Of a stretch of DNA of 47,549 nt, positions 20,001 through 47,549 are shown one piece after another. The position numbers were made by a program, and so were the translations under genes. How positions within the stretch are numbered: the first letter of the stretch is position 1; each line of letters begins with the position of its first letter. The notes beneath the pieces are model-generated. The model saw only the letters and a list, made by a program, of their open reading frames with translations. It was not told where the DNA came from and made no database searches. The DNA is from a virus: positions 1 to 47,549 of the IMG/VR virus record IMGVR_UViG_3300030107_005704; one strand, written 5' to 3'.

Positions 20001-20265
20001 TATGCAGCAAGGCCCAGAGGCAAGGACGGAACAACCCATGTTCGGCCAAGAGGGCTATGGGGCGATGATTCGTCAGAGGCGGCAACAGCAGGGTAATCCA
20101 AATTCTCTTGCAGCATTGAGACAAAGAGCTAGTGCCCAACCTACAATGAATCAAAAAGCTCCTGGAATGAGAACGGCTCGGGCTGGAAGCGGTGGTCTTA
20201 ACAGACTATCTAATGCTGCCAGGGGTTCTAATATGATGAAGAAACCAATGTTAACCTACGGATAA
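14062..20265 (+). CDS. 2067-residue mosaic low-complexity virion protein
   Basis: Segments by residue: 1-90 helical and not repetitive; 90-390 Ala/Lys/Gly helices with GKAGQ-like repeats; 395-490 a more conserved stretch containing [20 protein letters not shown], a pattern I recall from phage structural proteins; 495-815 irregular Ala-Gln-Gly-Leu repeats (variants of GLAGQ and AAGQQ); 890-1040 a charged coiled coil; 1090-1340 collagen-like Gly-Pro-Thr repeats; 1620-1660 poly-Gly; then Gly/Gln-rich sequence with internal duplications; and a basic C-terminus. Its place between the tail hub and two other large proteins suggests an ejection or tail-spanning virion protein. An extended fibre is the alternative. 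Function unknown. Confidence 0.6.
17038..17061. repeat. Intragenic perfect hairpin
   Basis: ACCAAGATCC and GGATCTTGGT, 10-bp perfect arms with a four-base loop, within the coiled-coil coding part of the 2067-residue gene. Confidence 0.8.
17500..17760 (+). repeat. Collagen-like coding repeats (Gly-Pro-Gly-Thr-Pro)
   Basis: Degenerate tandem DNA units around GGTCCAGGTACTCCA encode [12 protein letters not shown] and TTGP units. Several units differ only at third codon positions, which points to old duplications kept for their protein sequence. The repetition also leaves a long stop-free antisense frame that is not a gene. The flanking motif [12 protein letters not shown] occurs twice, at 17335-17376 and 17896-17937. 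Confidence 0.85.
19102..19266 (+). repeat. Duplicated [14 protein letters not shown] segment
   Basis: The 14-codon segment at 19102-19143 recurs at 19225-19266, 123 bp (41 codons) further on, with only third-position changes. Each copy also holds a small inverted repeat, GGAATGCC...GGCATTCC. It is an in-frame segmental duplication within the 2067-residue gene. Confidence 0.85.
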
Positions 20266-22005: not shown

Positions 22006-22068
22006 CACTTCCTTTTTAACACTCATACAATTTATTGAAAACTCCTTTTAGTTGAAAGTTCCTAGAAG

Positions 22069-25000
22069 ATGGTTGACCCAATTGATCCATTATCAAATGG
22101 AATGGACGCTGCGCGCTATAACCGAGCATTAGACGCTATAAATCCCGAAGGTGGCTTCAGGCTGTCTGACTGGGGTACCCAAATAACAAAGAATAATCCT
22201 CTCAAGGTATCTAAAGAGCTCGCCAAGAAATATGCTGTGGACAATAGGGTTCGTCCACAGATAATGGTCTTTGATAAAGAAGGTAATAAAGTCCCTTTCC
22301 AAAAGGGACTTCTTGCGACCATTAATATGGACGAGCTTTCTGCTGGTCCTGGATACCAGGGTGAAACTCTCGGTAGTTTGTTTACAAGCAAGGCTGCTGG
22401 TGTAGACCTTATCGACAGTGAAGGTACGATGAACTTCACTAAAGAAGATATCAATAGAATTGCTGATCAGGAGTTGGCTGAATACAAGAGAAATTACCCT
22501 GACCAAACAATCGATCCTGTTGAGTTTAGAGCCAATCTGAAAGCATACGCAATTGCGAATTATATCGTTCAGCCTTGGGATACTGGGAGGGCTTCAGACG
22601 AATCGGTCCAAGGGGGAATTGAAGAGGAGGAGATACCAGGCATTCTTTCTACGATGTCGACTTCAGAAAGAAATAGAACTCTAAGTGCTATTCAGGAGAT
22701 AATTAACGAAAACCCCGAAAAGACTTATACGCCATTTTTCTTTAAGGCTATTGGGGGAGCTGTGGAAGGAACTGGTCACTTACTAGAAAACGTAAATCTT
22801 ATCGGTCAAAAGTGGCTAGGTGGAGATGATCCCGATGTAGGAAGAACAGCCATAGAAGACATTGGCATAGGCTCAGCTGATATTGCTAGCCAGATGCTCA
22901 GCGAGAAGAGGAAGACTGGATTTAACCTTGAAGGGGAGGATGGAACAAGCGTATTGAAGCAGATGACGGCTATAGCGGATGAGAAGGTAGCCACTCCTAT
23001 ATTTAGCGTAGCTGAGTTTATGTACGGCGGTGTTGGCGCTGGAAGACTTTTCTCAAAAGGTGCTAGAATGCTTGGGAATGCATCTAAAAGTTCCACGATA
23101 GCTAAGGGGACTGCTGCTGGTGCAAGGATAAGAGACAAAATTGCTGCTGGACATGCGGTTAGATCTGTAGATAAGCTTAGCAAAACTGGCCATACACTTG
23201 GTTCTCTAGGTTACTGGAGTAGTATAGAGGGTATTCCCCTTCAACAAGACCTTTTAGAGATGGGCATGGACCCTGATACGGCTCGTTGGGTTTCTATGTC
23301 TGGTGGTCTTGGTATTGCTCTTATAGAACAATTGCAGGTTGGTTCTTTGGCGAAGGGCCTTAAAGCGAATCCAGTTAAAGAGTTAGGCAAATCTGGATAC
23401 ATTGACTCTCTCAAAGAAACAATAAAGCACAATAGAAAAAACTGGTTCAAACGACGATGGGCTAATGTTGTTGATATTGCTCGTAAAGTACCTGCTAATG
23501 CCGCAGAGCAAATAGCAGAGGAAATGGTTCAGAGTGCTTTAAGAGAGTCCATCAAAATGGGTTCTGGTTGGGCATCTAACACTTTTGGTGACGGGGATAT
23601 TAACTACAACAAGACTTGGACTCAAGTGAAGGATGAGTTCTTAGAAGAGTTGACCAGTGTTTCGATTGCAATGACAGGGCTAACCACCGGAAGGTCAGCC
23701 TGGAAAAGAGCTCAGAGAGGATTGCAGAATAGGAAGGCATTAAGGGAGTTTGAAAGAAAAAAAGCAGAACGAAGGCATGTTGGTGCTATTCATGCTGAAG
23801 CAGTTGCTGATGAGGCCGAGGCTTTGCTAGAATCCCAGGCTTACCTGGAAGCTGATGAAGCTGCTGCAATGCTAGGTCTTGAGCCACAGGAGCTAGAGTT
23901 TTTTAGAAGTGAAGGGCTAATCGAATATGAAACAAATAAGTCAATTGAAGTAGCTGAAGAATTTATAAAATCAGCTAAAGAAAAGCTGGCTGATGCAGAT
24001 AATCCGTTTGAAGAAGCGGCTGCTCAAATGGAACTTGATACAGCCACGGAAATGCTTAACGAATCTTCTTTTACTTATGAACGCAGTGCTATCCTTGATT
24101 TTGCTGAGCGTGAAGGAAGAGACATTGATCCAGCTTTCGCTGTTGATACAGGTCACCTTGAAGCTTACATGCAGTGGCTTGAGAATCCAAACATCGACCG
24201 TCAGTCAATGGCCCTGTTGTTTAATTACAAAGATGAAAACGACATTGGTTCTGAGTTGCTTCTTCCAAACGGGCAGAGATTAACTCTGCCCGTTTCCAAG
24301 ATGTTTGATATCTTGCAGAGCAATACTGCCCGAAGAGAATTCCTGGCAATACTTACCAGTGGTAGCTACCCACACCTGCAAGAAATGTATCGTGAGCGGT
24401 TGTTAACTGCTTCTAAGACATATGCTGACAAAGCTTTGGAAGATCGCATACAACCTCTTGTCGATGTGTTTAAGAAGCATTTAGCCCCAGGGGCGTTGTA
24501 TAGCCCTGAAGACAATGTTTATGACGAAGACGCTAGAGATGCTTACGAACTGGCTGAGCAGCTATCTGCATTCTTGCTTGATGGCTCAAGTAGTAGAAGT
24601 GCTTTCCAGAAGACTGTTCTCGGACCTAAAGCATTCAATCCAGATGGATCAATAGACTTTAGTACTTCCCGTGGAAGACTGATGGCAGATCTCCTGGACG
24701 TAATGGATGAGTCATTGCAGCGGGTGTACGATGGATTTATTCCAACTGAAGACGGTGAGTCTATGCCGATTGAGCAGACTCCGTACAGTGCTTACATGCC
24801 TGCACTAGACCTTCTCAGGATGGATGAGTCAAACTTCCGTGGGTGGGTGTTAGCTAACGGTGGTTCCGATGGAATGATCTCCACGCTATCTCGTGAAGCA
24901 ATTATTAACCGTCTTGCACCTGAGTTGGACACAAACATTGTCCGCAGAAAATGGTTGATACCTGACAACCTGGAAAAGCTTGGTTTAACTAACCAGGCTG

Positions 25001-28000
25001 AAAGAGCTCACTTCATGGCTATGCTTGAAGAAGCACTTTACGACCACACCATAGAGTCAACATTAAACACGATAAAGGGAATGGTCCATGAGACCATTCC
25101 TGCTTACGCAGCAGAAGCTGAGCACAGCAACTTTCTTGATAGTACTGCAAAAGCTTTGATAGATCTTGAGACCAGAATGGGTCAGGCAAAATCATCTCAA
25201 GAAAGAATGGCCATAGATAACGAGATTAAAAGGCTGTTTGAAAGTTTTGACACCAACAAGAATCCATTCCCTTGGTGGAATTACATGGCCATAAAGATGG
25301 ACTTAGGTGAAGCCATCCCTGATTACCTGCACAAGCAGATGGAACGTATGTACCTGGATGCCAAGTTCCGTGGAGTGGCTGTGCCAGATTATATCGCAGC
25401 TCAACTTGATCCTGAATACAAAGGTCCCCGCCAACCTGTTCCTGTTAAGCGGATGCCCATCACTGAAGCCTGGATGGAAAGGGTTATTGATAGAGTTCAG
25501 GAATTCCTGGATACAGCTGAAGGTAGAAACCTGACGATGGAGCAGGAAGATGCTCTATACGAGGACATGTACAACGCCAGGAGAGGTGTTGATCCTGATT
25601 CCGTATTGGCATCACAGGATAGATTGCTTGATTATGCTACCAAAATAGATCAAGGGGCAACTCTTGAGCCTACTAACTTAAGGCCTAGTGTTAACACTGA
25701 AGTTGAGGTTAATAGGGCTCGCAGATTAGGCGAGACCTTCAAGAGATTATTAAGAGAAGGCATCCTTGAAGACCCAGATGTCTGGAATGAGCGTATGCTT
25801 AGCTACCTTGATCTTACACCGCAGCAGGTGGAGACAGCTGTTATGCTGTATCGTCAGCGGGTTAACTTAGGGGAGCCTGTTTCCGAGAACATGATCTCAG
25901 AGGTAATGTACCAGGCTGTAACGGGGCGAGGTATAGACCTGGAGGCAGAGACTCTATCTCCTGTCGATGATCTGTTGCCAGAGCACGATGATTATACAGA
26001 TTTTGATCGTGCAACAGCTCGGCAGATACGAGCTGAAAGTATAGATGCTGCTGAAGCTTTCGACATTAACACTCACATTGAAGAGAACTACGATGGCAGG
26101 CAGGCTTCAGAGCTCAGCTCTCAGGAGAGAGCTGAGATTGGTGAACTACTTGATAGCTACATGCAAGCTATTCAGGATGAACTAAAAGAGCGCAAGCTGG
26201 ATGCCAAGTACGAAAAAGAGATTAGTCCCAAAAAGAAAAAATCCAAAGAGGAAAAAGAAAACCTAAGGTTCTTGAAGAAGATGTCCCAGCTTTACAAGAA
26301 GCTTGCATCGGATGAAACCAAGAAGTTCAATAGCATAACTACTGATTTTGGTAAGGAGCGGTCTCAAGACGAGGACGGTAAGAAAAAGCTTGAAGAAGGC
26401 AATTTTATTGTCCCTCATAAAGGGAGGAAGATTCCTACTATCGGTATCAGTTTTATGGGCAAGCGTTATGACGTTGCCCATTTAGAAGATGGTTATGACC
26501 TGACAGCTGACGGAGCAGTCATAGAACCTTCTGGAGAAATGCAGTCCCCTCAGAAAATTAAAACATTCTTTGTTGAGCATGGTGAAGCTGGGGATTTAAT
26601 CCCCATGGATTTGTATCGTGTAGGAGATGGGAAAGATACTGGTTATGTGGTGGTTAATCGGGAAACATCAAAGATATCTTCCCGATTGAATGCTGGTGAG
26701 AAAACTCCGTTTAATGAAGTTATAGCTGAAGCTACCGAACGAGTTATCTTTGACCGCAAAACCAATAGAGTATTTGGTGCATCAAAAACCATCATTCCAG
26801 AACTAAACCGTGAAGGTTTTACGGACCCTGACATTCACCGTGCTTATAAGAAAGTAAGATCTCGTTTCCCGAGTGTTCTCCGAAGTGAAATTGATTCATG
26901 GGTTAGGTACAACACTGACAATGATGCCATCAGGTTAGCGATGATTAAACACCTGGAGAGATTTCTTCCAGAGGGCGAAGTGGCTGCCCAGACCCCTAAG
27001 GGACCTGGTTCCGTGACCTTTGACCATATGGATGGAAAGGGGACTAATGACGACTTCTTGGTCGGCCATGAACCTCAATTCAAAAAGTACCACATCCAGA
27101 GGATGGACAAAAAGAGAGATCCAGCCCGAAGGAAATGGGAAGTGTTTTACGATGGCATGCTTATTCCTGGTGTTACAGCAGGAAACATTGAGTCGGCAAG
27201 GAGCATCATATACGACCATTGGATGAGTGGTGGAATGCGTGACTTTGTAAGTCACGGTACATTGCGGTCTGAGATGGGTAACATGCTCCAGGAGGGAAGT
27301 TCATTCCTTAAAGGGTATGAGAATCTATTTGAATGGAAAGAGCAAAAGACGACCAGCCGTGTTCGCAAGGATTCCCCGAAAGAGGTCGACAAGCTTGTTC
27401 CTGCCGGAAGAATGGAGGGCACTAAGCTTGCAATCAAACCATCTGAAGAACTTATTCGTCAGAAGAACGGAGAACCAGCCCCCGATGTTCCTGCTACAAA
27501 AGAAGAGATTGAAAGTAGTGACGACAACCAGAAAGACTGGGCAAAGCTGCCGAAGCCTTTGAAAAATGAGAGCGTTGAGCTTGCAATGGAAATTGCAATT
27601 GCACAGCTTCAAGCTACTGGACTTCTGGGATCAAAGCTTGATGTAGTTAGAAGTCAGGTTACTAAGTCTACTGATGACGGTGGAGAAGGTGTAATTACCT
27701 ACAAGGACAAGTCGGGTAAGGTTTCTTACGCACTGGTTCATAAGAGTTTTCTTGCTGAGCATGGTACTGATAGCTTTCTAATTGAACAAGTAAACCAAGA
27801 TGCTGTTTCCGAATCAAATGGATTTGTACTTTGGAGCGCTGCTCTAGATACTCCTTCCGATTGGTTTGAACAAGTGGATGTGGAGTCGATAAATGAAGGC
27901 AATTACGAAGAGATCCATAGGTCCATTATTGAGAATTTAATTGAAGAAGGTTATGAAGACCACATTAGCGAGTCAGTAAAAGACTACTATGGCGGCGACT

Positions 28001-31000
28001 TGTTTGAAGGTTACCAGCTAGTTAATGATTTCTCAGTTCTACCGGAGATGGTTCATATAGACAACCTGACTGCTCATGATACGGAAATTGCTCTTGAGAA
28101 CATTTCAAGCTACTTAATGGGTCTTGCAGAAGCTGGGCAAATTAAACCAGATATAAGCCGAACTGAATTCAAGAACATGATAGTTGAACCCTTGGAAGCT
28201 ACCCTTGAAGATATTGCAGGTAGTCAAGGTATACCTACTCAAGAGTTGATGGAAGATTCACCCCAACTTGAGAAGAACATAATCGCTCTTTACAGAAAGA
28301 ATGTAGTAAGGCTCTTGGATCATTTCAGAAAGATGCCAACCGCTGAGCAGCAAGCAGAAACTGAAAGACTGCAAGATCCTGTTGAGCAGCAGATGGATGC
28401 TGAACTGAGGCAGGTTATAGAATACGACAGGAACTACGGAAGAGCGACTAACCACTTCAGACATGATGGTGTTCTTTATGTAAGGGTGAAGAAAAACAAG
28501 ACTGAGTTTAGCAGGGACAACTACATACCAGCCAAATACATTCTTGATTGGAATAACATTACCCAGAAACGCACGATTTATAACGGTGATGTTGATTACT
28601 ATGTTCCTGGAATGAAGAAATCCCCCAAGTCAGATCAACCAGGTCCTTTTCAGCTGATGCATGCTGTGATGAAAAAGGGTAAAGAGGTTGATCACCCTTC
28701 AGAGCTTGTGTGGACAAGGATTCAAGGACAGAGAGAAAGTCTTGTTGAAGCAGAGATATTTGCTTCCGAGAAGCTTGGTATTAGCTGGATTGGTTCTTAT
28801 GGAAACATGGAGGAGTTTAACCAGTTCTATGAAAATCTTTCTGAGGATGCTCAGAAATTAATCATCCAGAAGATGACTAACCTGCTAAATCAAGCTCGCA
28901 AGAGTCACAACCCGACACTCTTAGACAATCCTGAAACTGGAACTAGATCAGAGCTTATCAAATTGATGGATGATCTAAGGACAGCTGCTGGGGTGGAGTC
29001 CCATTGGGGACTACCTAATCGGGATAAAGTAGCTCAAATCAGAGAGCAAGTTAAGAATCTCAACACCTATTTGGATTCGATGTTGGAGATCGTTGTTAGT
29101 GAAACTCGTAGGTTTGAAGAACAAGCTGATCAAGAGACTGTAGAGCAGGAAGTCGTTGAGGAACGCAAGCCCGAAGTACAGCACGAGATAGTTTTTGAGG
29201 AAACTGAAGAAGAAAGAAGGGATGAACCTGGTGAGCAGCAAACTCTGTTCTCCATATCATCACCCTCGGTGATTGTTGATGAGTTTGGCAATCAGCTGGA
29301 TATGAGCAATTACGTTACTGAAGAATCTCAACTTGAGGGCGAACAATACAGTGTTGTTAACTGGACTAATCTACCCAACTCTGAGAGAAACATAGATCCA
29401 AAAGCTATCCTGGATATCATTCCAGGGTTAGAGTACATCGGCTACAGTGAAGCACTCGGAGCTCATGAGTACAGGCTGGGCAAGGAAAGCCCAGCCCATC
29501 AAAAATACGGTGACAATCCGTATGGTGCGCCGTCTAATATGGAAGTAGGGAAAGACATAATATCACCGTCTCGTTCTTTTTACAGTAACAAGGGTACTAT
29601 TGATGGAGATACGATCTGGATAAAGTACACCAAGTTCATACCTTACCAGACAGGTGAGATTACTGGGTATGGTCAAGACGCAGAGTATGATGCAGCCAGG
29701 GAAGCTACTGGCGTGTCAGCTACAGGTGGTGCTTTCTTAAACTTTGCACAACAGGGTGGTGACAATGTTATTCTGATATCAGATCTTGGTATGGACATGT
29801 CTCCAGGTGGAGCAAAGACTCTTACTCACGAGTTTGCTCACATGCTACAGTTTGCTGGACGCATATCTGAAGACATGCAGGTGTTTATCTTACAGGAAGC
29901 TGTCAACCAAGGGAGAGTTGATTACAACGCTCCCTGGGATGTCATGGTCGAAGCCACTGCCGACATGCTTACCGAAGAGTTTATGAAGGACTACAACGAA
30001 AGAAACCGTAGTGGTTTGATTCGTAAATTCAGGAACATTCTTAGAAGATTCGGTCGCAAGATAAACACTTGGTTAATCAATGCTGGCATGAAGGAAATGA
30101 ATATCGACTACATAGTCGATAGATGGACTAGCGGTAAATTCGCATCTGAAAGACAAGCTCGCAGACAGAACTATCTAAACATGATGCGTACAATCCCATC
30201 AAGGATGCCACGCAATTTCTATGACATACTTGGCAATAGCGGGGCATCGGCAGCTGACGCAGTTGCAAAAGCAAATGATCAACGCAGGGATGGGTTTATA
30301 GCAAAGCTAATATCATCTGGGTTTTTTGATGTTAAACAGTTTGCAGTTACTGCTGGCTTGATGGACGGTCATATTAAGTGGGCTAAAGCTACTAAGTCTT
30401 TGATCACAAAGATGTTCAGAGCTCATGACCTGGATGACAAAGAAGCGCGTAATATGTTCACCAGGCTTACTGAAGAGCACCGTGGATTCATGGCCGGTCA
30501 GGATAGACGATTGAGACTGAATATGGATAGATTGCGATCCCTCAGGGATCGCATATTTGGATCTGGTGAAGTGCCTGATTCCGTAACTCAGATGTTCCGA
30601 AAAGCTTTATCTGATCAAAACGCACGCCTTAAACTACCTGATTTGCTAACCAAGAAGATTAAAGATCCTAAGGAACGGGAAAGACTTAAGGGATTGTTCC
30701 AGGAATATGGAGAGGTCCTTCAGAATGCACGTGAGCATATAGATGAACTTTCAAGGTTAATCCTTCAGGTTGTCCCTGATATAGACGAAGAGTTGGCACT
30801 TAGGATCGACAAGAACCTGGATGTTTACGTCACAAGATCGTACAACTTGTTCACCTCTGAAGATTACATTGACTATCTGAACAACACCGAGGCTGGAAAG
30901 GAACTTTACAAGGAAGCTGCTTTGAAGATCATTGAGACTCACAATGAGCGTTTGGCAGCGAAGGTTCAGACGAAAGCTTTCTACGAAACCTTGTACGACC

Positions 31001-33627
31001 CTGACTCAGATTTGTCTAAGGATTACAGGCAATTCAGAAAGGATACCAGGGCCGACATAAAAGAAGGCTTGCATGCTGACATAGTGAGTGAGTTAGGTAG
31101 CGAGAAGGCTGCCCTGGCTCGTCTGAGTGGCATGTGGAAGATGGAATGGGCTCAACACAGTGACAACACTGGTCTTTGGGAGGCTGATTACAACGAAGCA
31201 AAGATGGATGAACAGCAAGGTTTGGATGAAACTGTTCGCATGCTAAACAGGCTAATCAGAAAGGGAGGAAGAAGTGGAGTCGGTGAGGGTAAGCTTAATA
31301 CCCAGATTCTGATGAAGAGGAAAGAGATCGACATAATATTCAGAAAGCTATATGGTGAGATTACTGATGCGGACCAGAGCTATGGTATTTCAGTTACGAA
31401 AATGGCCAAGCTTATAGCAAATGCTCAGTTCCATAATGAGCTTCTAAAGAATCCAGTGTTTGGGTCTGGCATGAGCCTTAACAGTGAACCTGGGAAATTC
31501 GACAAGACATTCCAGGGAACTGAATGGGGTGTTCTCGCTTCCTCGGGCTACTTCTTTACCGAGGAACTGTACGATGCAATCGAAGGTGCGTTCGGAAAAA
31601 CATTCCTTGGTCAGATGCGAGACAATAGCGATTTCATGTCCAAGATCCTTGTTTACACTGGGATGATGAGCCAGATTAACAAGGCGACTCTCACCATATT
31701 CAACCCTAAAACAGCTGGTCGAAACCCTGTGGAGGCAATGATTACAGCAATGTTTAATGGGCATTTCTCAATGGGAAATGCCCTTAAGGGATTCATAATG
31801 TCATGGATGGCTAATGATAGTTACAAGCCGTCAAAAATACGCATGCTGGTAAATCCAGGAATTCACCTGGTGAAGGAAGCAATGCATTTCTACGACATGG
31901 TCCAGGACTCTAACGGATTAATGAATTTAGTGTTCCAGCCAGGAAAAAGGGTTAAGTACGGAAAGGCCAAGGCTAAATGGCATGAAGAAACAGAATCTTT
32001 CCAGGATCTTGTTACTAATTTGACTGAGCTTGGGCTCTTGTCCAATGACAAATGGAGCCTTGAAGAGGAAAACATAAGGGCTTTAACAAAAGAAACTTTC
32101 AACGGTGAAAGCTTGTTCTCAAGCCGTGAAGCCAGGGAGAAGTTCAGGGAGAACCCTAGCGTTAAGTCATGGTGGGAATTGCAGAAATCAAACTGGAAGG
32201 AAGGTGCTGGTAGGAAGGTTGCTGAGAAACAAACTAAGTTGAGTGTCAACTACTGGTGGAAGGCTCTAACCGACAATAAAACAACTAGATCTTTGGCAGC
32301 TGCTTACAGAATTGGTGATGATGTTGCTAAGGTCATGGGGTATTTAACTGAGAAGCAGCACCTGGAACGTGCTATGCGACATGAAGGCGCTACCGAAGAA
32401 GAGATCAGGGCTAAACAGGAATTTATCATCCAGAAGGCTGTAAACAAAACCCTTGATATCACTACTACTTACAGCCGAGTTCCCATCGGATTGAAGGCTA
32501 TCGGTTCGATACCTATCATCGGTTCCTTTGCTGGTTGGACAGCTAGTTATGTCCAATCAACTATTGGCCGGTACGCCAATGCAATGGAAGAAATTCAGAG
32601 TGACAATAAATACATTAAAAATCTTGGTATAAAAAGAGTGATTCTTGCCTTGCTTGGAGATGTTGGTTTAGCTGCTCTCGGCAGAATGATCATACCAATT
32701 TTCTACGATGACGACGACGAGTTTGAAGCTTACAGGTCGATGCTTAACGACTGGCAAAAAGGCCATACAATAATTCCATTTAAGTTTGGAAACAATTCGC
32801 CTGAATTCTTTGACGCTACAGCATTGATCCCTTCACTGATGTATGGAGACATATTCTTTGAGGGTTACAATGAGTTTTCTGACAAGGGAATAATAGCTGG
32901 TTTGGGAGCATCTTTTGCAACTGCAACTGAACCGTTTCTTGATACCGATGTGTATACCGATAGATTGGTAGATGTGTTTTGGCGTACAGGAAAGCCGGAG
33001 ATGGCCCCGCAAGTATGGAGTGTATTCGATAATCCGCTTGAAGTCACAGCCAAGGCGGTACAGCATCTAACTATTGGGCGAGACTTAAGAGGACCCCTGA
33101 TCCCTGGTTTTGTTAGTGAAATGAGGAGAGCTCAGGAAGCACTAAGCGGTGAAGAATCTAGAACTGGGGTTATTAGAAGTCCATTTGGTGTAGCTACTAG
33201 ATGGATGATTGGTACTGAAATCAACCGCATGGAACCTGAGAAGAAGCTTACATTCAAGGCTATGGAGTTCAAGAGAAGGTACCAGGAAATAAAGACTGAA
33301 CTTCGGAGATCTGGATTTAGCGAGAGCTCGGCTAAATTCAAAGCAGATATGGAAGATTTCAGAAAGGAAAACGAAGTTCTCTACCGTGACATGGCCCAGG
33401 TAGTTTACGCTGCTAGGAAGATGGGGATGAGCCTGTCGAAGATAGAAGCCACGTTAAGGCAATGGAATATGGGTGCGGAGGACATCAAAGCATTCATTAA
33501 TAAGTCTTCCAGAAAACCTGTATTTAGCCCTAAAATTGTTGAAGGGATACTTGATGCCTCTAAAACATCAAAAGATAGGAACCGAAAGAGGACAATTTTA
33601 AGAAGGTACACCGACGATGGCAGGTAA
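22069..33627 (+). CDS. 3852-residue giant polyvalent-type ejection protein with metallopeptidase motif
   Basis: One uninterrupted frame covering a quarter of the genome. Residues 210-480 are helical with Gly/Ala-rich, possibly membrane-active segments (VAEFMYGGVGAGRLFSKGA). A zincin motif H2587-E-F-A-H2591 lies in TLTHEFAHML, with a downstream acidic helix VMVEATADM (E2628 a likely third ligand), as in the metallopeptidases of phage polyvalent proteins. Residues about 3400-3740 contain DDVAKVMGY, VPIGLKAIGSIPIIGSF, TEPFLDTDVYTDRL and SPFGVATRWMIG, the style of the C-terminal LPD38 region of such proteins (recalled, not searched). The C-terminus is basic. It is probably packaged and injected with the DNA. 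The ribosome site is weak. The N-terminal 2400 residues are unassigned. Confidence 0.7.
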   Translation: MVDPIDPLSNGMDAARYNRALDAINPEGGFRLSDWGTQITKNNPLKVSKELAKKYAVDNRVRPQIMVFDKEGNKVPFQKGLLATINMDELSAGPGYQGETLGSLFTSKAAGVDLIDSEGTMNFTKEDINRIADQELAEYKRNYPDQTIDPVEFRANLKAYAIANYIVQPWDTGRASDESVQGGIEEEEIPGILSTMSTSERNRTLSAIQEIINENPEKTYTPFFFKAIGGAVEGTGHLLENVNLIGQKWLGGDDPDVGRTAIEDIGIGSADIASQMLSEKRKTGFNLEGEDGTSVLKQMTAIADEKVATPIFSVAEFMYGGVGAGRLFSKGARMLGNASKSSTIAKGTAAGARIRDKIAAGHAVRSVDKLSKTGHTLGSLGYWSSIEGIPLQQDLLEMGMDPDTARWVSMSGGLGIALIEQLQVGSLAKGLKANPVKELGKSGYIDSLKETIKHNRKNWFKRRWANVVDIARKVPANAAEQIAEEMVQSALRESIKMGSGWASNTFGDGDINYNKTWTQVKDEFLEELTSVSIAMTGLTTGRSAWKRAQRGLQNRKALREFERKKAERRHVGAIHAEAVADEAEALLESQAYLEADEAAAMLGLEPQELEFFRSEGLIEYETNKSIEVAEEFIKSAKEKLADADNPFEEAAAQMELDTATEMLNESSFTYERSAILDFAEREGRDIDPAFAVDTGHLEAYMQWLENPNIDRQSMALLFNYKDENDIGSELLLPNGQRLTLPVSKMFDILQSNTARREFLAILTSGSYPHLQEMYRERLLTASKTYADKALEDRIQPLVDVFKKHLAPGALYSPEDNVYDEDARDAYELAEQLSAFLLDGSSSRSAFQKTVLGPKAFNPDGSIDFSTSRGRLMADLLDVMDESLQRVYDGFIPTEDGESMPIEQTPYSAYMPALDLLRMDESNFRGWVLANGGSDGMISTLSREAIINRLAPELDTNIVRRKWLIPDNLEKLGLTNQAERAHFMAMLEEALYDHTIESTLNTIKGMVHETIPAYAAEAEHSNFLDSTAKALIDLETRMGQAKSSQERMAIDNEIKRLFESFDTNKNPFPWWNYMAIKMDLGEAIPDYLHKQMERMYLDAKFRGVAVPDYIAAQLDPEYKGPRQPVPVKRMPITEAWMERVIDRVQEFLDTAEGRNLTMEQEDALYEDMYNARRGVDPDSVLASQDRLLDYATKIDQGATLEPTNLRPSVNTEVEVNRARRLGETFKRLLREGILEDPDVWNERMLSYLDLTPQQVETAVMLYRQRVNLGEPVSENMISEVMYQAVTGRGIDLEAETLSPVDDLLPEHDDYTDFDRATARQIRAESIDAAEAFDINTHIEENYDGRQASELSSQERAEIGELLDSYMQAIQDELKERKLDAKYEKEISPKKKKSKEEKENLRFLKKMSQLYKKLASDETKKFNSITTDFGKERSQDEDGKKKLEEGNFIVPHKGRKIPTIGISFMGKRYDVAHLEDGYDLTADGAVIEPSGEMQSPQKIKTFFVEHGEAGDLIPMDLYRVGDGKDTGYVVVNRETSKISSRLNAGEKTPFNEVIAEATERVIFDRKTNRVFGASKTIIPELNREGFTDPDIHRAYKKVRSRFPSVLRSEIDSWVRYNTDNDAIRLAMIKHLERFLPEGEVAAQTPKGPGSVTFDHMDGKGTNDDFLVGHEPQFKKYHIQRMDKKRDPARRKWEVFYDGMLIPGVTAGNIESARSIIYDHWMSGGMRDFVSHGTLRSEMGNMLQEGSSFLKGYENLFEWKEQKTTSRVRKDSPKEVDKLVPAGRMEGTKLAIKPSEELIRQKNGEPAPDVPATKEEIESSDDNQKDWAKLPKPLKNESVELAMEIAIAQLQATGLLGSKLDVVRSQVTKSTDDGGEGVITYKDKSGKVSYALVHKSFLAEHGTDSFLIEQVNQDAVSESNGFVLWSAALDTPSDWFEQVDVESINEGNYEEIHRSIIENLIEEGYEDHISESVKDYYGGDLFEGYQLVNDFSVLPEMVHIDNLTAHDTEIALENISSYLMGLAEAGQIKPDISRTEFKNMIVEPLEATLEDIAGSQGIPTQELMEDSPQLEKNIIALYRKNVVRLLDHFRKMPTAEQQAETERLQDPVEQQMDAELRQVIEYDRNYGRATNHFRHDGVLYVRVKKNKTEFSRDNYIPAKYILDWNNITQKRTIYNGDVDYYVPGMKKSPKSDQPGPFQLMHAVMKKGKEVDHPSELVWTRIQGQRESLVEAEIFASEKLGISWIGSYGNMEEFNQFYENLSEDAQKLIIQKMTNLLNQARKSHNPTLLDNPETGTRSELIKLMDDLRTAAGVESHWGLPNRDKVAQIREQVKNLNTYLDSMLEIVVSETRRFEEQADQETVEQEVVEERKPEVQHEIVFEETEEERRDEPGEQQTLFSISSPSVIVDEFGNQLDMSNYVTEESQLEGEQYSVVNWTNLPNSERNIDPKAILDIIPGLEYIGYSEALGAHEYRLGKESPAHQKYGDNPYGAPSNMEVGKDIISPSRSFYSNKGTIDGDTIWIKYTKFIPYQTGEITGYGQDAEYDAAREATGVSATGGAFLNFAQQGGDNVILISDLGMDMSPGGAKTLTHEFAHMLQFAGRISEDMQVFILQEAVNQGRVDYNAPWDVMVEATADMLTEEFMKDYNERNRSGLIRKFRNILRRFGRKINTWLINAGMKEMNIDYIVDRWTSGKFASERQARRQNYLNMMRTIPSRMPRNFYDILGNSGASAADAVAKANDQRRDGFIAKLISSGFFDVKQFAVTAGLMDGHIKWAKATKSLITKMFRAHDLDDKEARNMFTRLTEEHRGFMAGQDRRLRLNMDRLRSLRDRIFGSGEVPDSVTQMFRKALSDQNARLKLPDLLTKKIKDPKERERLKGLFQEYGEVLQNAREHIDELSRLILQVVPDIDEELALRIDKNLDVYVTRSYNLFTSEDYIDYLNNTEAGKELYKEAALKIIETHNERLAAKVQTKAFYETLYDPDSDLSKDYRQFRKDTRADIKEGLHADIVSELGSEKAALARLSGMWKMEWAQHSDNTGLWEADYNEAKMDEQQGLDETVRMLNRLIRKGGRSGVGEGKLNTQILMKRKEIDIIFRKLYGEITDADQSYGISVTKMAKLIANAQFHNELLKNPVFGSGMSLNSEPGKFDKTFQGTEWGVLASSGYFFTEELYDAIEGAFGKTFLGQMRDNSDFMSKILVYTGMMSQINKATLTIFNPKTAGRNPVEAMITAMFNGHFSMGNALKGFIMSWMANDSYKPSKIRMLVNPGIHLVKEAMHFYDMVQDSNGLMNLVFQPGKRVKYGKAKAKWHEETESFQDLVTNLTELGLLSNDKWSLEEENIRALTKETFNGESLFSSREAREKFRENPSVKSWWELQKSNWKEGAGRKVAEKQTKLSVNYWWKALTDNKTTRSLAAAYRIGDDVAKVMGYLTEKQHLERAMRHEGATEEEIRAKQEFIIQKAVNKTLDITTTYSRVPIGLKAIGSIPIIGSFAGWTASYVQSTIGRYANAMEEIQSDNKYIKNLGIKRVILALLGDVGLAALGRMIIPIFYDDDDEFEAYRSMLNDWQKGHTIIPFKFGNNSPEFFDATALIPSLMYGDIFFEGYNEFSDKGIIAGLGASFATATEPFLDTDVYTDRLVDVFWRTGKPEMAPQVWSVFDNPLEVTAKAVQHLTIGRDLRGPLIPGFVSEMRRAQEALSGEESRTGVIRSPFGVATRWMIGTEINRMEPEKKLTFKAMEFKRRYQEIKTELRRSGFSESSAKFKADMEDFRKENEVLYRDMAQVVYAARKMGMSLSKIEATLRQWNMGAEDIKAFINKSSRKPVFSPKIVEGILDASKTSKDRNRKRTILRRYTDDGR
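22289..22311. repeat. Intragenic perfect hairpin
   Basis: AAGTCCCTTT and AAAGGGACTT, 10-bp arms with loop CCA, in the 5' part of the giant gene. Confidence 0.8.
24267..24295. repeat. Intragenic 12-bp perfect hairpin
   Basis: AAACGGGCAGAG and CTCTGCCCGTTT, 12-bp perfect arms with loop ATTAA, inside the giant gene. This is the strongest hairpin found within coding sequence; no T-run follows, so it is not a terminator. Confidence 0.85.
26113..26136. repeat. Intragenic perfect hairpin
   Basis: CTCAGCTCTC and GAGAGCTGAG, 10-bp arms with loop AGGA, in the giant gene. Confidence 0.8.
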
Positions 33628-33889
33628 AATGAAGAGAAGGCGGTATGATCGGAAGGGTTATTACGATGATTCCGAGAACACAACCGAAGCTATAGCTCAT
33701 GGTTATGAGCCTAAATACGTTGCCCGTGGGGAGCGTAAAGAGGACAAAAGGGACTATAAGCTTGATAAAACAGCCCAGAAAACAGAGCTCCTTAAGGCTA
33801 AGGGGACTCGTTTGAAGTGGCTTGTAATACTGATAGGTTTGGTAATGGGCGGTTTTGCCGCATTCAAATCAGGAATATTTGGAGGTTGA
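33617..33889 (+). CDS. Small basic protein with C-terminal membrane segment (lysis candidate)
   Basis: 90 residues. Residues 1-65 are very basic and polar (MKRRRYDRKGYYDD, RGERKEDKRDYKLDK). Residues 68-88 are one hydrophobic segment (WLVILIGLVMGGFAAFKSGIF), so the protein is a tail-anchored membrane protein. It overlaps the end of the giant gene by 11 bp and is one base before the next membrane protein. Three adjacent small membrane proteins after the virion genes suggest a lysis cassette. Alternatively it may be a virion membrane-channel component. No holin family is recognised. Confidence 0.5.
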   Translation: MAGKMKRRRYDRKGYYDDSENTTEAIAHGYEPKYVARGERKEDKRDYKLDKTAQKTELLKAKGTRLKWLVILIGLVMGGFAAFKSGIFGG

Positions 33890-36460: not shown

Positions 36461-36743
36461 AAATTTCCTCCGCGCTCATAGCTGCGCTTTCAAAAAGTGT
36501 TTTTATTACGGGGACACATGCCTCGTAAGTTGCCCTGCCGACATAACGCCTACAGGTTTCTTCTTCAGTCCATGACTCCCTGATCTGTGCTGAGACCCGA
36601 CGAATCCGTTCGTCCATGATCTCAATGGCTTCAGGGAGCTCCCATCTAAGGTATTCAATGGCCCAGTTTTCTAATGGGTCATCAGTATCTACTTTCAGAT
36701 ACCATTCTTTTAAGGCGGCTTTTACGTATGATCCATTTCGCAT
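36447..36743 (-). CDS. Early protein of unknown function
   Basis: 98 residues from the ATG that shares one base with the stop of the primase-helicase gene (TGATG). Mostly helical and acidic (LENWAIEYLRWELPEAIEIMDERI), with several Trp and no recognisable catalytic residues. Tight coupling to the primase-helicase and to the resolvase suggests an accessory replication role, but there is no direct evidence. Confidence 0.5.
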   Translation of the reverse strand: MRNGSYVKAALKEWYLKVDTDDPLENWAIEYLRWELPEAIEIMDERIRRVSAQIRESWTEEETCRRYVGRATYEACVPVIKTLFESAAMSAEEIYDQQ

Positions 36744-38464
36744 CAATAAAACCGTTGCTCCGAAGATTCAAATCGCAGGTGAAGCTTCTGCTTCTTGATG
36801 GGCCCGTTACGTCTTTTGGCAATGTGCACATCGTATCTGCGGGGATTGTCGGAATTATTGTCTTTACCATAATTCCAACCGAACAGTATTAGGTCGGCAT
36901 CCTGCTCCAACTGTCCTGATTCCCTTAGGTCTGACCCTTGAAATTCTACATTATCCCTCTTCTCCACCTCTCGGGAAACTTGGCAAAGTGCCAGAATTCC
37001 GATGTTGTAATCTCGGGCACAGCCTTTGATCCGTTGAGAAATTTCTGTAACAGTTTCATATCTTCCGCTTGAGGTTGATGATCGTAGAAGTTGGAGATAG
37101 TCGACAGCAACCAGCTGGACACCATTGTTTTCGACGTAGGACTTGATATTAGTCTCAACATCTTCAATGCTTCCAACTGGTCTGTAAAAGAGCTTCCCCT
37201 TATCTTTCCAGTAATCCTCAATCTTCGCCATGATCTCATTCTTATTTTCCTCCCAGTATTGTTCATCTTCAGGAAAGCCATTCATAACAACCCTCCTGCC
37301 GATTTCCCTTGCTGACATTTCAGCGTTAAGCATTAAGCAATTCACATTGTTTTGGGCCTGATAGATCAGCCACTGTAAAGCTAGTGCTGACTTACCATGT
37401 CCAGGGCGAGCTGCAATGATCGCCACTTCCCCTGGCCCCACTCCATCAATAGAGTAGTCAACAGCAGAGATACCGCTGCCGAAGTAATGGTTAGCACCGA
37501 CACTTTTAAGGAATACGTTGGCACAATCTACCACGGTCTCTGACGATTGTTCGCTTTCGCTACTGAGTCGATTACGTACACTATCGTAAGCATTGTTAAT
37601 AACAGTACTAAGCCAAACATCATTGCCACCTTTTTCGTATCCCTCTTTCTCGCACCAGTGCCTTAAGGTGCTCTTGATGACATCGGTGTGCACTCGCTGG
37701 TAGACCAGCTCGCACGCTATGTAGAATACACTGGCACTGGTTGATCTGTCCCCGTCAAACGAGTCATCAAACATCCTGTGCCATTTCCTGTACAAACGAC
37801 TTTCCTGGTTCTTGATCATGCTTGCGATCTCACCTGGAAGGCCGTATTCATCCTCAGAGGGCGGCACCAGAGAGGTGCCGAACCGGACACAGGAAGCTTC
37901 TATCTCACTTCGGTAAGTCCAACTTGGTGTGAATCGTTCAAGCTCTTCCCACGACTCATTGACATCTACGAACCTACTCTTGTTCCAGTAAGGTAGTCGG
38001 ACGAGGTTCCCCAACCCCTTACCAGACAGTTTATCCTGTCTAGGGTAGATCTCCTTGAACTTCTGACCTACCTTTTCGGCAACCCCCTTCCAGAACTTCC
38101 TGATAAGCCATGCCGGTATAGGGTCCTCAAAGAACAGCCATATGTGAGCTCCTGAGCCGCTAGACGACACTTCGGCTGTCGGTGTGTATCCTTCCTGCTC
38201 TAAGAAGTTGAAGACCGCCTGAGCATCCTCACGCCATTGAGGATTGGGGTCATCATCATGGTTGTCAAAATCAACGCAGCTGCAATGTACTGTGTTGTCC
38301 TTCCGCATGACATAAAAACCAACACAAGTATTCCCAGTAAGGTGTAAAGTTCGATAATCTTCAATCGTAATTTCCTTATCCATCGGCCTGAAGTCATGGG
38401 CACAGATATCCTCTCTTCCCCTAAAGGTGTTAACGACGATTGCTTTGTCTAATTCAGATAACAT
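36743..38464 (-). CDS. Primase-helicase: AEP-type primase fused to DnaB-like helicase
   Basis: 573 residues from the ATG preceded by AAGGAG. N-terminal part: motif DFD (D65, D67), SSGSGAHIW (H107) and GLGNLVRLPYW near 150-160, the signatures of archaeo-eukaryotic primases of the kind found in TOTE-type conflict elements. Residues 225-300 form a helical linker like a primase C-terminal domain. C-terminal part: Walker A ARPGHGKSA (K358), LNAEMS, Walker B AVDYLQLL (D455), LCQVSREVEKR, and GSDLRESGQLEQDAD, the DnaB/RecA-like hexameric helicase set. It would unwind and prime at the fork. Most short-tailed phages use a TOPRIM primase instead. Confidence 0.88.
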   Translation of the reverse strand: MLSELDKAIVVNTFRGREDICAHDFRPMDKEITIEDYRTLHLTGNTCVGFYVMRKDNTVHCSCVDFDNHDDDPNPQWREDAQAVFNFLEQEGYTPTAEVSSSGSGAHIWLFFEDPIPAWLIRKFWKGVAEKVGQKFKEIYPRQDKLSGKGLGNLVRLPYWNKSRFVDVNESWEELERFTPSWTYRSEIEASCVRFGTSLVPPSEDEYGLPGEIASMIKNQESRLYRKWHRMFDDSFDGDRSTSASVFYIACELVYQRVHTDVIKSTLRHWCEKEGYEKGGNDVWLSTVINNAYDSVRNRLSSESEQSSETVVDCANVFLKSVGANHYFGSGISAVDYSIDGVGPGEVAIIAARPGHGKSALALQWLIYQAQNNVNCLMLNAEMSAREIGRRVVMNGFPEDEQYWEENKNEIMAKIEDYWKDKGKLFYRPVGSIEDVETNIKSYVENNGVQLVAVDYLQLLRSSTSSGRYETVTEISQRIKGCARDYNIGILALCQVSREVEKRDNVEFQGSDLRESGQLEQDADLILFGWNYGKDNNSDNPRRYDVHIAKRRNGPIKKQKLHLRFESSEQRFY

Positions 38465-38477
38465 ATTTTCTCCTTGC

Positions 38478-38511
38478 AAAAAAAAGCACTGGGAGCGCTA
38501 ACTCCCAGTGC
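38478..38511 (-). terminator. Intrinsic terminator between SSB-like and primase-helicase genes
   Basis: Read leftward, GCACTGGGAG and its complement form a 10-bp stem with a six-base loop, followed by eight T. It ends, or attenuates, the transcript of the recombination genes before the primase-helicase gene, whose ribosome site starts only a few bases later. Confidence 0.92.
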
Positions 38512-39035: not shown

Positions 39036-39830
39036 CTACGCTTCCTTTGAAAATAGTTTTACAAAATTACGGAATCCCTCAGACGATGAGGAACCCAAAT
39101 CGAAAGATGCTGGCAGGCCCATTCTGTTCTTGGCCTCAAACCCAGCTTCAGGTTCGCAGTAGGCGACACGCTTCTTGCCTCCTTTTGCCTTACCGCTTGA
39201 ATCGACAGTGGTGAAAAAATTGAAAAACAGCACTGCGTCAGCCCACTGTCGGATGACATCACTGTTGTCCTTGTGAAGATCGATCTTGTAAGACTGGTAG
39301 TCTTCGCCAAGGGGGTTGCGTTCTTTAGCCAGACGACTGTGTGCGAGACACACGATGGTCATCCCCTTTTCGATACGCAATCGATCAAGTTTAATAGTCA
39401 GTTCCTTGAATACGTTCGCACAGGCGGCGTATCCACGGTGGTATGCCATGAAACTGGCATGGTCACCATTGAACTGTGTTTGCAACACATGCTCCAGACA
39501 CAGCTCTTCAAAGCCATTTAGGCAATCAATAACAACTGTCTTGAAATCATGATCTGCTGATGCCAGTTCATCCAGAGCTCCCATGAACTCCGACCATGTG
39601 TCGAATGCAGGGAGATGGCTGGTTTCACCTAACTGCCCACTTGAGATAAGGGTCTCAAGACCAGTCTCATTGCGGCTCATTAGGTACAGAGGTTTGGTCA
39701 TTTCAGCAGGGAAAGATGTCTTCCCCACGCCTTCACGACCGTAAATAACGATTCGGTAAGGCAGCTTTTCGGCTTTAGCCTTTACCTTGGTCAGAATGCT
39801 TCCAATAGCATTAGCTGATACTTTGTTCAT
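39036..39830 (-). CDS. Sak4-like RecA-fold ATPase (single-strand annealing recombinase)
   Basis: 264 residues, typical length. Walker A GREGVGKTS (K37) near the N-terminus, Walker B VVIDCLNGFE (D102), and a third conserved strand TIVCLAHSRLA in the place of the RecA-like sensor region. Later segments (KIDLHKDNSDVIRQWADAVLFF) follow the phage AAA_24/Sak4 pattern. It likely works with the SSB-like protein and the nuclease upstream in recombination and repair. It starts 20 bp inside the nuclease gene, with AGGAAG upstream. Confidence 0.8.
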   Translation of the reverse strand: MNKVSANAIGSILTKVKAKAEKLPYRIVIYGREGVGKTSFPAEMTKPLYLMSRNETGLETLISSGQLGETSHLPAFDTWSEFMGALDELASADHDFKTVVIDCLNGFEELCLEHVLQTQFNGDHASFMAYHRGYAACANVFKELTIKLDRLRIEKGMTIVCLAHSRLAKERNPLGEDYQSYKIDLHKDNSDVIRQWADAVLFFNFFTTVDSSGKAKGGKKRVAYCEPEAGFEAKNRMGLPASFDLGSSSSEGFRNFVKLFSKEA

Positions 39831-40797
39831 GAACTTCTTCCTTTTTAGTGGAGTTCCAAAATGACTCTAGGCACTCATGAAATGCAGAGCCAAATGTGAG
39901 AGCTAACGGTTGCTCTTCACGATCTCTTTCGATACGTTCGACGTATCGGTAGTAGTACTTTCGACGACACTCCATGAAGGTGTGTATGCCGGATGTACTT
40001 AAGTTAAATTCACCAGACAGGTCAGAACCTTTTCGTTCCCTCCAAGATCCGTCATCAGGTCTGGATGTACCGCAGCAAATGTTAATGTATTCACATGGCG
40101 TATTGAACTTTGAGCACGCACTGCTGTTCTGGTACCAGCTACCGTTCAAACGGGCATCTCTGATGTGATCAGCGATTGTGTTTAACGTCAAGTAGGTTTG
40201 CTCACATTGAGCAGTGGTACGACGAAGATTCCCGTGACGAAGATAGTATTTATCTGGGTCAGCAAGTATCTCCGAGAACAAACGTGTCTCAAACAGACCA
40301 GGCGTTTCCACATCACCAACATCTACTGCTGGTATAGGGATTTTCAACATAAGGTCGCAATAGTGACCAACCTGTAGCTGTTCTATATCCGCTTTCTTCA
40401 GCTTCCTCGGACGAATCCTTGGTTTGTGAACAACATCGTATATAGTTTGCTCTAGCTCTTCCTCCATGAAGAGCTGAGCCATGTGGTAAGCAGACAGCTG
40501 TAAGTCATAAGCCAGCTTCTTGAAGTATGGCTTATTCAGATCTCCCAGATCATGCACGGTCGTCTTATGTTCCAACATAACCAGACCATGATTATCGTCC
40601 GTGATCAGCGTATCTATCTTACCAACGAATACATAGGGTTTTACTTTCAGTTCGATTTCAAAGTTACGCTCTACGTCAACTGCGTACCATGTGTCGGCAG
40701 CATATCGATAGAAGTAACCGAGAACAAGTGCACGAAGCTTAGCTTTGTCATACTCTTCCATTTCGTAGTTTGAAATTGCCGCTAAGTGCTTACTCAT
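39811..40797 (-). CDS. Cas4/RecB-like PD-(D/E)XK nuclease with permuted motif order
   Basis: 328 residues from the ATG with GAGGTG upstream. Residues 20-105 carry the catalytic core: D62 (VGKIDTLI), E77 and K79 (LEHKT) and YDLQLSAY (Q100). Cysteines at 198, 228, 235 and 241/242 suit an iron-sulfur cluster. Residues 266-312 (NLSTSGIHTFMECRRKYYYRYV, then LTFGSAFHECLESFW with H307) are the segment that normally opens these nucleases, before the catalytic core. Here it closes the protein, so the order is circularly permuted. All catalytic pieces are present once, so activity is plausible. It probably resects DNA for the Sak4-like ATPase encoded next. Confidence 0.75.
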   Translation of the reverse strand: MSKHLAAISNYEMEEYDKAKLRALVLGYFYRYAADTWYAVDVERNFEIELKVKPYVFVGKIDTLITDDNHGLVMLEHKTTVHDLGDLNKPYFKKLAYDLQLSAYHMAQLFMEEELEQTIYDVVHKPRIRPRKLKKADIEQLQVGHYCDLMLKIPIPAVDVGDVETPGLFETRLFSEILADPDKYYLRHGNLRRTTAQCEQTYLTLNTIADHIRDARLNGSWYQNSSACSKFNTPCEYINICCGTSRPDDGSWRERKGSDLSGEFNLSTSGIHTFMECRRKYYYRYVERIERDREEQPLALTFGSAFHECLESFWNSTKKEEVHEQSIS

Positions 40798-40978
40798 TCG
40801 GTGACACCTCATTCTTGTTGATGTAATCTTCAAGAGCTGATTTGGTAGTCATCCAAGTCTTGCCAATCTTTCTGGCTTCCAAGCCTTTGTTGACCCAGTT
40901 ACGGATCGACTGTGGCGTTTTGTGTAGAAGCTTTGCGGCTTCAGAGATAGTTATCTTATCTGGATCAAAGATATCCAT
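40790..40978 (-). CDS. Small HTH (MerR/excisionase-type) DNA-binding protein
   Basis: 62 residues from the ATG with GGAAGG four bases upstream; a TTG six codons further is less likely. The sequence ITISEAAKLLHKTPQSIRNWVNKGLEARKIGKTWMTTKSALEDYI is a winged helix-turn-helix of the excisionase/MerR type, with recognition helix SIRNWVNKG and a Lys-rich wing. It heads the recombination module and overlaps the nuclease by eight bases. No integrase is found, so a transcription regulator role is more likely than excision. Confidence 0.75.
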   Translation of the reverse strand: MDIFDPDKITISEAAKLLHKTPQSIRNWVNKGLEARKIGKTWMTTKSALEDYINKNEVSPNE

Positions 40979-46626: not shown

Positions 46627-46878
46627 ATGAGTGGAATGGAAGACGTAGTAGCTGTATTACACCACGCTTTCCGCTGGGATTGCGAGATTTGTGGGCGTGA
46701 GAACTTTGAAAGGGCCATCTCTATGGAAAAAGAGTACATAGAGGCTAAGGTTGATGGTAAGCTAGACGAAGATGGTGATTACGTTCTTTACCCTGCAATA
46801 GTTGTGTGTAAGCACTGTTCCGCTCAATACCTAGCATCTTTCCAGGGTTTGCAAGATTTGGAAGAGGAAGGCGAATGA
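46627..46878 (+). CDS. Small zinc-ribbon protein (complete)
   Basis: 83 residues, GGGAGG before the ATG. Two CxxC pairs (C19/C22 in WDCEICGREN and C61/C64 in VVCKHCSAQY) enclose a 38-residue middle, a zinc-ribbon layout, with an acidic Glu-rich tail. It is the first rightward gene and overlaps the surface gene by four bases (ATGA). It might regulate or co-fold with the variable surface protein, but no evidence beyond position. The 3' end of its other allele begins this window. Confidence 0.7.
   Translation: MSGMEDVVAVLHHAFRWDCEICGRENFERAISMEKEYIEAKVDGKLDEDGDYVLYPAIVVCKHCSAQYLASFQGLQDLEEEGE
46775..46851. repeat. 77-bp exact repeat (pair of 1-77)
   Basis: Identical to window bases 1-77; the left border of the second allele of the bubble. 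Confidence 0.95.
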
Positions 46879-47525
46879 GTACAACTACCACTACGTTTAC
46901 AGTATCTGCGAGCGCTGATGACGGATACGTGAGCAAGGCTACGTCATCGTCAACAATTCCGACATCTGGTTGGGGCAGCCCGAGCAATAGCGGTAGTAGC
47001 GTTACAGTTGGAAGCCAAGACAACGAGAGTTGGCCGAATTATTTCACACACTATTTAGGTTTTTTTAGATTCCAAAATATCACTGTCGCTCAAGGTGCGA
47101 CAATCGCTTCGGCATATTTCAAGCCATACAAATCAGGCTACCAGTCTACTCCGTTAGTAATCCATGGCATCGATGCAGATAATGCGGCGGCACCTTCAGC
47201 AGGCAGCGATTTAGCAGCGAGTAATTTCACTTCCGCAAATGTCAGTTGGTCAAGTTCGGTAGGATTTGGGCAACAGACAAGCTCAGATATTAAAACCATC
47301 ATACAAGAGATTGTAAACCGTTCAGGTTGGTCAAGTGGCAATGCAATGATGTTAGCCGTTGTGACAAACACATTTAGTTATGCTGGACAATATGGCTGGA
47401 ATGCAAGGCAATACGACTATTCAAGTGCTAGCGAGGCCGCTCAATTAGTTATTGAGTATTCATCGGGCAGTTCGACACCAATAGCTGCAATATCAATGAA
47501 CACATACAGACAAATGAGGAATTAA
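46875..47525 (+). CDS. Variable virion surface protein, allele 2
   Basis: 216 residues. Residues 1-195 have a beta-sandwich pattern that I recognise from phage fibre and carbohydrate-contact proteins of the DNRLRE-like kind: LGFFRFQNITVAQGATIASAYFK, then TSANVSWSS, IIQEIVNRSGWSSGNAMMLAVV and AAQLVIEYSSG. The last 17 residues (ending MNTYRQMRN) equal those of allele 1, while the rest is unrelated in sequence and 63 bp longer over the variable part. It starts at ATG four bases inside the zinc-ribbon gene. It likely carries a different ligand specificity from allele 1; binding is inferred. Confidence 0.65.
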   Translation: MSTTTTTFTVSASADDGYVSKATSSSTIPTSGWGSPSNSGSSVTVGSQDNESWPNYFTHYLGFFRFQNITVAQGATIASAYFKPYKSGYQSTPLVIHGIDADNAAAPSAGSDLAASNFTSANVSWSSSVGFGQQTSSDIKTIIQEIVNRSGWSSGNAMMLAVVTNTFSYAGQYGWNARQYDYSSASEAAQLVIEYSSGSSTPIAAISMNTYRQMRN

Positions 47526-47549
47526 GATGTTTTTGAAGCAATCAACAAA
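47473..47549. repeat. 77-bp exact repeat (pair of 636-712)
   Basis: Identical to bases 636-712; the right border of the second allele of the bubble and the end of the window. Confidence 0.95.
47527..47549 (+). CDS. 5' end of the surface/structural gene (same as 690)
   Basis: The first codons MFLKQST match the gene at 690-1565 exactly, cut by the window end. On the circular map this is the same gene. Confidence 0.9.

Follow-up and report, generated by a model that had tools for sequence, protein, structure and literature searches.

Two probable alleles of a putative glycan-binding head gene in an uncultured phage share a C-terminal tail whose type follows the next gene

The window analysed here is the whole of a viral record from IMG/VR (IMGVR_UViG_3300030107_005704; 47,549 nucleotides). 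Its two ends carry different versions of one gene, alleles A and B, each encoding a head followed by a short C-terminal tail. The features of the two segments that hold them, arm A at the left end and arm B at the right, are as follows.

1-77, plus strand: left border repeat V1, first copy, which opens arm A; 3' part of the zinc-ribbon gene, with exact identity to 46775-46851.
98-145, plus strand: remnant, in arm A, of a B-type gene since displaced (ATGAGTACAACTACTACTACATT...), now a 15-codon stub ORF reading MSTTTTTFLLNKLEG and then a stop; the arms are 93.5% identical as far as base 120, and allele B and locus L050 begin in the same way.
146-688, plus strand: allele A, a 180-aa protein consisting of a predicted jelly-roll head and the tail; starts at GTG, preceded by GGAGGG at 136-141; model pLDDT 89.
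635-685, plus strand: shared tail codons of allele A (TTPIAAISMNTYRQMRN), containing the Shine-Dalgarno-like GAGG of the next gene (679-682).
636-712, plus strand: right border repeat V2, first copy, from the first codon of the shared tail to 23 nt inside the next gene.
690-1565, plus strand: downstream gene (MFLKQST gene), 291 aa; its N-domain (approximately residues 1-110; 690-1019) goes with the tail.
46627-46878, plus strand: upstream gene for an 83-aa zinc-ribbon protein, flanking the exchange on the left; arm A repeats its 3' end at 1-101, with some codons changed.
46775-46851, plus strand: V1, second copy, which opens arm B; exact identity to 1-77.
46875-47525, plus strand: allele B, a 216-aa protein with a predicted DNRLRE/CBM96-like head plus tail; model pLDDT 74.5, pTM 0.75.
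47472-47522, plus strand: shared tail codons of allele B, from the alignment with the allele A tail and from the model.
47473-47549, plus strand: V2, second copy, exactly identical to 636-712 and ending at the contig's last base.

The exact 77-bp identities and the variable stretches between them (558 bp in arm A, 621 bp in arm B), first noticed in a sequence-only reading of the same DNA, were reproduced here. The first copy of V1 is flush with contig base 1 and the second copy of V2 with the last base, and no other exact repeat of at least 30 bp was found in the window. The identities had been described as ending after 77 bases, which is true of the exact repeats, but on the left the homology runs past the border at 93.5% up to base 120 of arm A and includes a 26-bp exact block at 86-111. 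On the right side, arms A and B become identical inside the first codon of the tail. The in-frame codon changes reported for the zinc-ribbon gene were also recovered, its 3'-terminal codons reading T-D-L in one version and Q-D-L-E in the other before EEGE.

Chance does not explain repeats of these lengths in these positions. A k of 77 accounts at once for both, because, when the de Bruijn graph of a circle contains one bubble, a path from arm A through the backbone to arm B passes exactly two k-mers twice, those at the branches, one per end. The contig ends are best read as both arms of a single bubble in the k=77 graph of a phage genome that is circular or circularly permuted and that would measure 46,774 bp with allele A and 46,837 bp with allele B, in line with the 46.8 kb or so proposed earlier. 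On this reading, two forms of the gene coexisted in the sampled population, with a backbone that was nearly identical around them. The further claim of an otherwise uniform genome goes too far, as the arms require identity over only 77 bp per side and short-read assemblers conceal small strain differences. Counting against the bubble reading, the placement of A on the left and B on the right is left unexplained by it, because a short-read assembler cannot join arms across a 46-kb backbone.

The closest relative found, IMGVR_UViG_3300030090_002660 (hereafter G001), is a circularly permuted contig that is 92-98% identical across most of the genome. Its locus holds a single gene, a third version (at 92-643) that is about 30% identical to A and has the tail STPIAAISMNTYRQMRD. 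In this comparison the locus shows one trait of a metaviromic island or hypervariable host-recognition locus, a sharply divergent gene within a near-identical backbone. Each further intact locus examined likewise has a single gene just before the MFLKQST gene.

After the end of the zinc-ribbon gene, arm A keeps the first seven codons of a B-type gene, followed by GGAGGG and the GTG start of the A gene. Since arm A retains the start of a B-type gene, we conclude that a B-type gene was displaced here by one of A type, complete with its own ribosome-binding site. Contrary to the sequence-only reading, the start codons are not common to both genes: the B-type ATG in arm A (98-100) opens just the 15-codon stub, and allele A starts at the GTG at 146.

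The stub also bears on two other ways of producing the same contig. If each genome held both genes as a tandem pair, and the assembler left out the stretch joining V2 to V1, the path from arm A through the backbone to arm B would be equally expected and one phage would make both heads; head doubling does occur in the group, locus L011 putting two A-type heads in one protein. We regard this arrangement as improbable, because one gene stands here in G001 and in each further intact locus examined, because the stub indicates replacement rather than addition, and because no stretch leading back from the next gene to the zinc-ribbon gene, which a tandem pair needs, was seen. The other possibility is a false join, in which arm A comes from a different, moderately related phage sharing both 77-mers. 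Arm A indeed departs from arm B right after V1, and A-type heads are found in other phages (L053-L060). However, two exact 77-mers in common suggest that the sequences differ locally by no more than about 2%, and G001, whose flanks are about 95% identical, does not share them exactly; moreover, the stub and the identical tail and next-gene start fit allele replacement on the same backbone, which leaves a chimeric contig with slim prospects.

Two alternative versions with one common end also recall invertible or shuffled tail genes, where a dedicated switching device (a diversity-generating retroelement, invertase or shufflon) toggles a gene inside one lineage. Here the variation is of whole domains rather than of points, and no silent copy was found elsewhere in the window. 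Neither reverse transcriptase (PF00078) nor serine or tyrosine recombinase (PF00239, PF00589) was matched in the record, and no inverted repeats bracketing the gene were found. On these absences the retroelement, invertase and shufflon were ruled out as candidates, and a switching device of any such kind is largely refuted and hardly credible.

Outside the locus, most of the sequence is 92-98% identical to G001. The stretch at 20452-33685 has no blastn match to it and spans a giant 3852-aa gene (22069-33627), the product of which has no PHROG match; this giant-gene region is another replaced or fast-evolving module. Two more short islands of divergence from G001 lie at 781-1114, in the next gene, and at 8978-9668, in a 252-aa gene after the capsid gene. 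The region 14062-20265 encodes a 2067-aa Gly/Pro-rich, repeat-bearing protein, and low-complexity repeats also occur at the ends of contig G002.

When family A was compared with family B by hhalign, 18 C-terminal tail residues alone aligned (E 6e-8), in agreement with the common C-terminal tail noticed previously. As judged by these profiles, heads A and B are unrelated in sequence and belong to two families sharing the tail alone. The models predict a carbohydrate-binding beta-sandwich for each, of a different kind in A and in B, and leave the tail unfolded. The bodies of both proteins had no match in 50,697 phage records, and sequence searches of Pfam, PHROGs and the PDB with either head or with the N-domain returned nothing useful.

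Against solved structures, the allele A model matched many jelly-roll carbohydrate-binding modules (CBMs) tied at Z about 11, the best being CBM4-2 (2y64; Z 11.2, 3.3 A over 135 residues). We assign it a CBM4/CBM16-like fold, a class in which non-CBM jelly rolls score almost as high as CBMs. The protein itself has no family match in Pfam, PHROGs or NCBIfam, CBM sequence profiles included, and sequence searches gave only scattered, weak single-member matches, to non-CBM families only. For allele B (Foldseek was also run), the best match of the model was 8wab, a chondroitin-sulphate-binding CBM (Z 15.3, 3.9 A over 170 residues), followed by 7vbo, an alginate-binding CBM (Z 13.7), and then by TGF-beta-type propeptides. 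The predicted fold is DNRLRE/CBM96-like, on a model of pLDDT 74.5 built from 8 sequences. The DNRLRE profile NF033679 matches 5 of the 8 members of the allele B family (best 1.8e-11), although not the window protein itself, which also has no Pfam match. From the models, the heads would bind glycans of the host surface or of its surroundings, and the earlier designation of a surface protein is plausible, both heads modelling as CBM folds.

A-type heads are also present in other phages (L053-L060), four of them (L054-L057) in contigs of 45-86 kb. The locus sequences of L054 and L056 also contain the ORFs KSAILLWMGGGPSTMDIWD, which we take to resemble planctomycete DUF1501 proteins. At L011 (2933-3991) the two A-type heads stand in tandem on one tail, and its relative L088 is single-headed.

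The head is joined to the short C-terminal tail by a Gly/Ser-rich linker, and model confidence in the tail is low in both alleles (below 50 in B, 53-63 in A). Among relatives, the genes before the MFLKQST gene have very different bodies (A-type, B-type and several others) and similar tails, with a type I consensus of roughly P-x-x-x-hydrophobic-N/H-x-Y-R-Q-M-R. Type II tails (AKIPVTLFINGMST, AAKIPITLFINGMST, SVPIAIFFTGMST) form a group with a different N-domain in the next gene. A motif fitted to 27 distinct tails scored 449, against 219-234 for shuffled tails.

The ribosome-binding site of the next gene (ATGAGG) lies within the tail codons, overlapping those of the last four residues. With this overlap, conservation of the tail as a purely protein feature was set aside, and the residues ahead of the ribosome-binding stretch were therefore tested separately. 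A matrix was built from 24 distinct tail cores and applied to 39 non-redundant loci new to it, with other ORF ends as background; in some of these loci a spurious ORF had apparently been taken as the upstream gene, and these were counted as failures. With the matrix, 31 of the 39 new loci scored above the 95th percentile of other ORF ends (p 1e-18), as did 29 with the five residues ahead of the ribosome-binding stretch alone (p 4e-14), p-values that serve as a guide only and are not strictly valid because the loci are related by descent and not independent. The last four residues alone were enriched in 14/39.

This last enrichment, the GAGG or GGAG encoded by the tail ends a few bases before the next start, and the adjacency of tail and N-domain on the DNA would all be expected if the tail were conserved solely as the ribosome-binding site of the next gene and as a homologous crossover point, and were not a docking peptide. 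The independent enrichment of the five preceding residues (29/39) argues against this, as do the unfolded state of the tail in both models and the switching of tail type with the N-domain, described below, in which neither the head nor the remainder of the next protein takes part. We consider a role limited to translation and crossover unlikely, though it deserves some weight.

Across the loci, type I tails stand before a type I N-domain (IMG/VR and MAG loci) and type II tails before a type II N-domain, which starts MATRNVxMTxTF... (L050, L095-97, L020-22); no mismatch of types was seen among these IMG/VR, MAG and L loci. The head does not dictate the tail. The MATVTTSIGTNTSIDTETP head occurs with tail I in L001 and with tail II in L020-L022, head B with tail I (the window, L007, L009, L014, L016), tail II (L050, L095) and a third tail (L049), and head A with tail I and others (L053-L060). 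Comparison of sequences across phages thus shows tail type to follow the N-domain type of the next gene whatever the head.

Two pairs of loci illustrate this. L001 and L022 agree at 77% in their heads and at 87% over the final 90 aa of the next protein, whereas their tails are of types I and II, respectively, and their N-domains only 22% identical; the exchanged unit therefore spans the stop codon and the start codon of two genes. Between allele B of the window and L050, the heads are 80% identical and the N-domains 17%. Phages therefore seem to exchange heads by way of a docking pair whose halves lie in two adjacent genes, and we infer that the tail physically docks onto the N-domain. The two are also adjacent on the DNA, and linkage alone could therefore make them travel together.

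The same pairing is found in MAG contigs assigned to Woeseia, Planctomycetaceae, Omnitrophica and others, bin assignments of a kind that can be wrong. Among known phages, the N-domain is clear only in a Microcystis phage (Mvi-Yong1342-1), in which the upstream gene ends ASPIPVFMNHYLQQGIR and which thus also shows the pairing. At L049, L053, L059 and L060, A and B heads carry a third, proline-bearing anchor (N-terminal in L053) beside a small protein with an SPDDGT motif, and this anchor and protein are possibly a third docking pair.

Two further genes may bear on the place of the head on the virion:

1671-2087, plus strand: a 138-aa member of this beta-domain superfamily, paralogous to the N-terminal part of 9805-10908 (54% identity over 90 aa, E 7e-27).
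9805-10908, plus strand: head-tail adaptor (SU10_adaptor, PF24175, E 2e-15) with the same beta-domain at its N-terminus.

The N-domain profile aligned with the family of the 138-aa protein in hhalign (probability 89%, E 2.4e-6). With a sister domain forming part of the head-tail adaptor, these relationships hint at a site for the head near the neck.

Candidate recombination genes are also encoded in the window:

39036-39830, minus strand: Sak4-like recombinase of the single-strand annealing type, a candidate for promoting the exchange of heads (PF13479, E 4.5e-34; phrog_124, E 2.5e-39).
39811-40833, minus strand: PD-(D/E)XK exonuclease adjoining Sak4 (PF12705, E 1.2e-19; phrog_1218, E 4.2e-25).

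Together they make up a Sak4-type system of recombinase and nearby exonuclease. Passages of one report describe single-strand annealing recombinases of the Sak4 kind as acting on diverged DNA and generating phage mosaics (PMC5499656). A primase-helicase fusion, with an AEP-TOTE primase domain and a DnaB-type helicase, lies at 36743-38479 on the same strand. Most likely, co-infecting phages would exchange heads by homologous recombination, with a left crossover in the zinc-ribbon gene and a right crossover in the conserved tail or next-gene start; the Sak4 recombinase and exonuclease of the phage, by their presence, may assist. On the virion, the tail would then dock the head onto the N-domain of the next product, possibly near the neck.

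Taken as a whole, we consider it probable that the contig ends are bubble arms and that the gene in them encodes an exchangeable carbohydrate-binding head on a tail paired with the N-domain of the next gene. The sequence-only reading had arrived at the two-allele graph bubble; it overlooked the tail as a separate module going with the next gene, and the stub of the displaced gene in arm A. A broader proposal, to which we give even chances, is a widespread plug-and-socket over two adjacent genes, in which a C-terminal tail of 12-18 residues on otherwise unrelated glycan-binding heads docks to the N-domain of the next product, in at least two mutually exclusive types; phages of unrelated hosts would change heads by recombination in the linker, and one population would keep two heads. 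If this is true, the tail and its matching neighbour domain offer a sequence handle for interchangeable heads, often unannotated, in uncultured phages of many lineages. The tail would also predict which heads are compatible with which virions, and would allow a direct test of how phages maintain several host-recognition variants in one population. Public viral contigs can also be screened for the assembly signature, repeats of equal length k that abut the contig ends, as a way to loci with two co-existing alleles.

Adhesin swapping at conserved motifs is well known in T-even phages, and the exchange of specificity by recombination at conserved stretches between variable parts is similar here. 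No T4 fibre homology was found, however, and what is conserved here is a single short tail at the C-terminus, directly before the next gene. Small glycan-binding beta-sandwich heads are also displayed on virions by phage T4 Hoc and by further decoration domains of Ig-like or CBM-like type. The predicted heads resemble these, although their anchoring appears tied to the next gene product rather than to any demonstrated capsid binding. The collar fibre of T4, fibritin (wac), is anchored by its N-terminus, whereas the anchor here is C-terminal, and no homology between the two is shown. According to passages on fibritin, its C-terminal domain is modularly swapped (PMC3797505), and a modular fibre exchanged by swapping, with a possible neck location, is what the two systems would have in common. 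Allele B resembles the DNRLRE/CBM96-type polysaccharide-binding modules (8wab, 7vbo, NF033679) by its predicted fold and, at the level of its family, partly by profile; it differs from them in that the window protein lacks a profile match and carries a phage-specific tail, binding being predicted from fold.

The closest parallel in population structure is with metaviromic islands and flexible genes, as portrayed in parts of two reports, where near-identical phage backbones co-exist with strongly divergent versions of host-recognition genes, including carbohydrate-binding domains (PMC3909814; cryoconite phages, PMC7468147). Those passages deal with under-recruiting or flexible genes and contain no such pairing, whereas here heads of different families sit on one tail and the tail is paired with the N-domain of its neighbour. 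In a limited search of the open-access literature, we found no account of a short tail at the C-terminus being matched in type to the N-domain of the next gene. Divergent host-recognition genes on near-identical backbones are thus already known, and what is apparently new is the pairing of the tail with the N-domain of the neighbouring gene.
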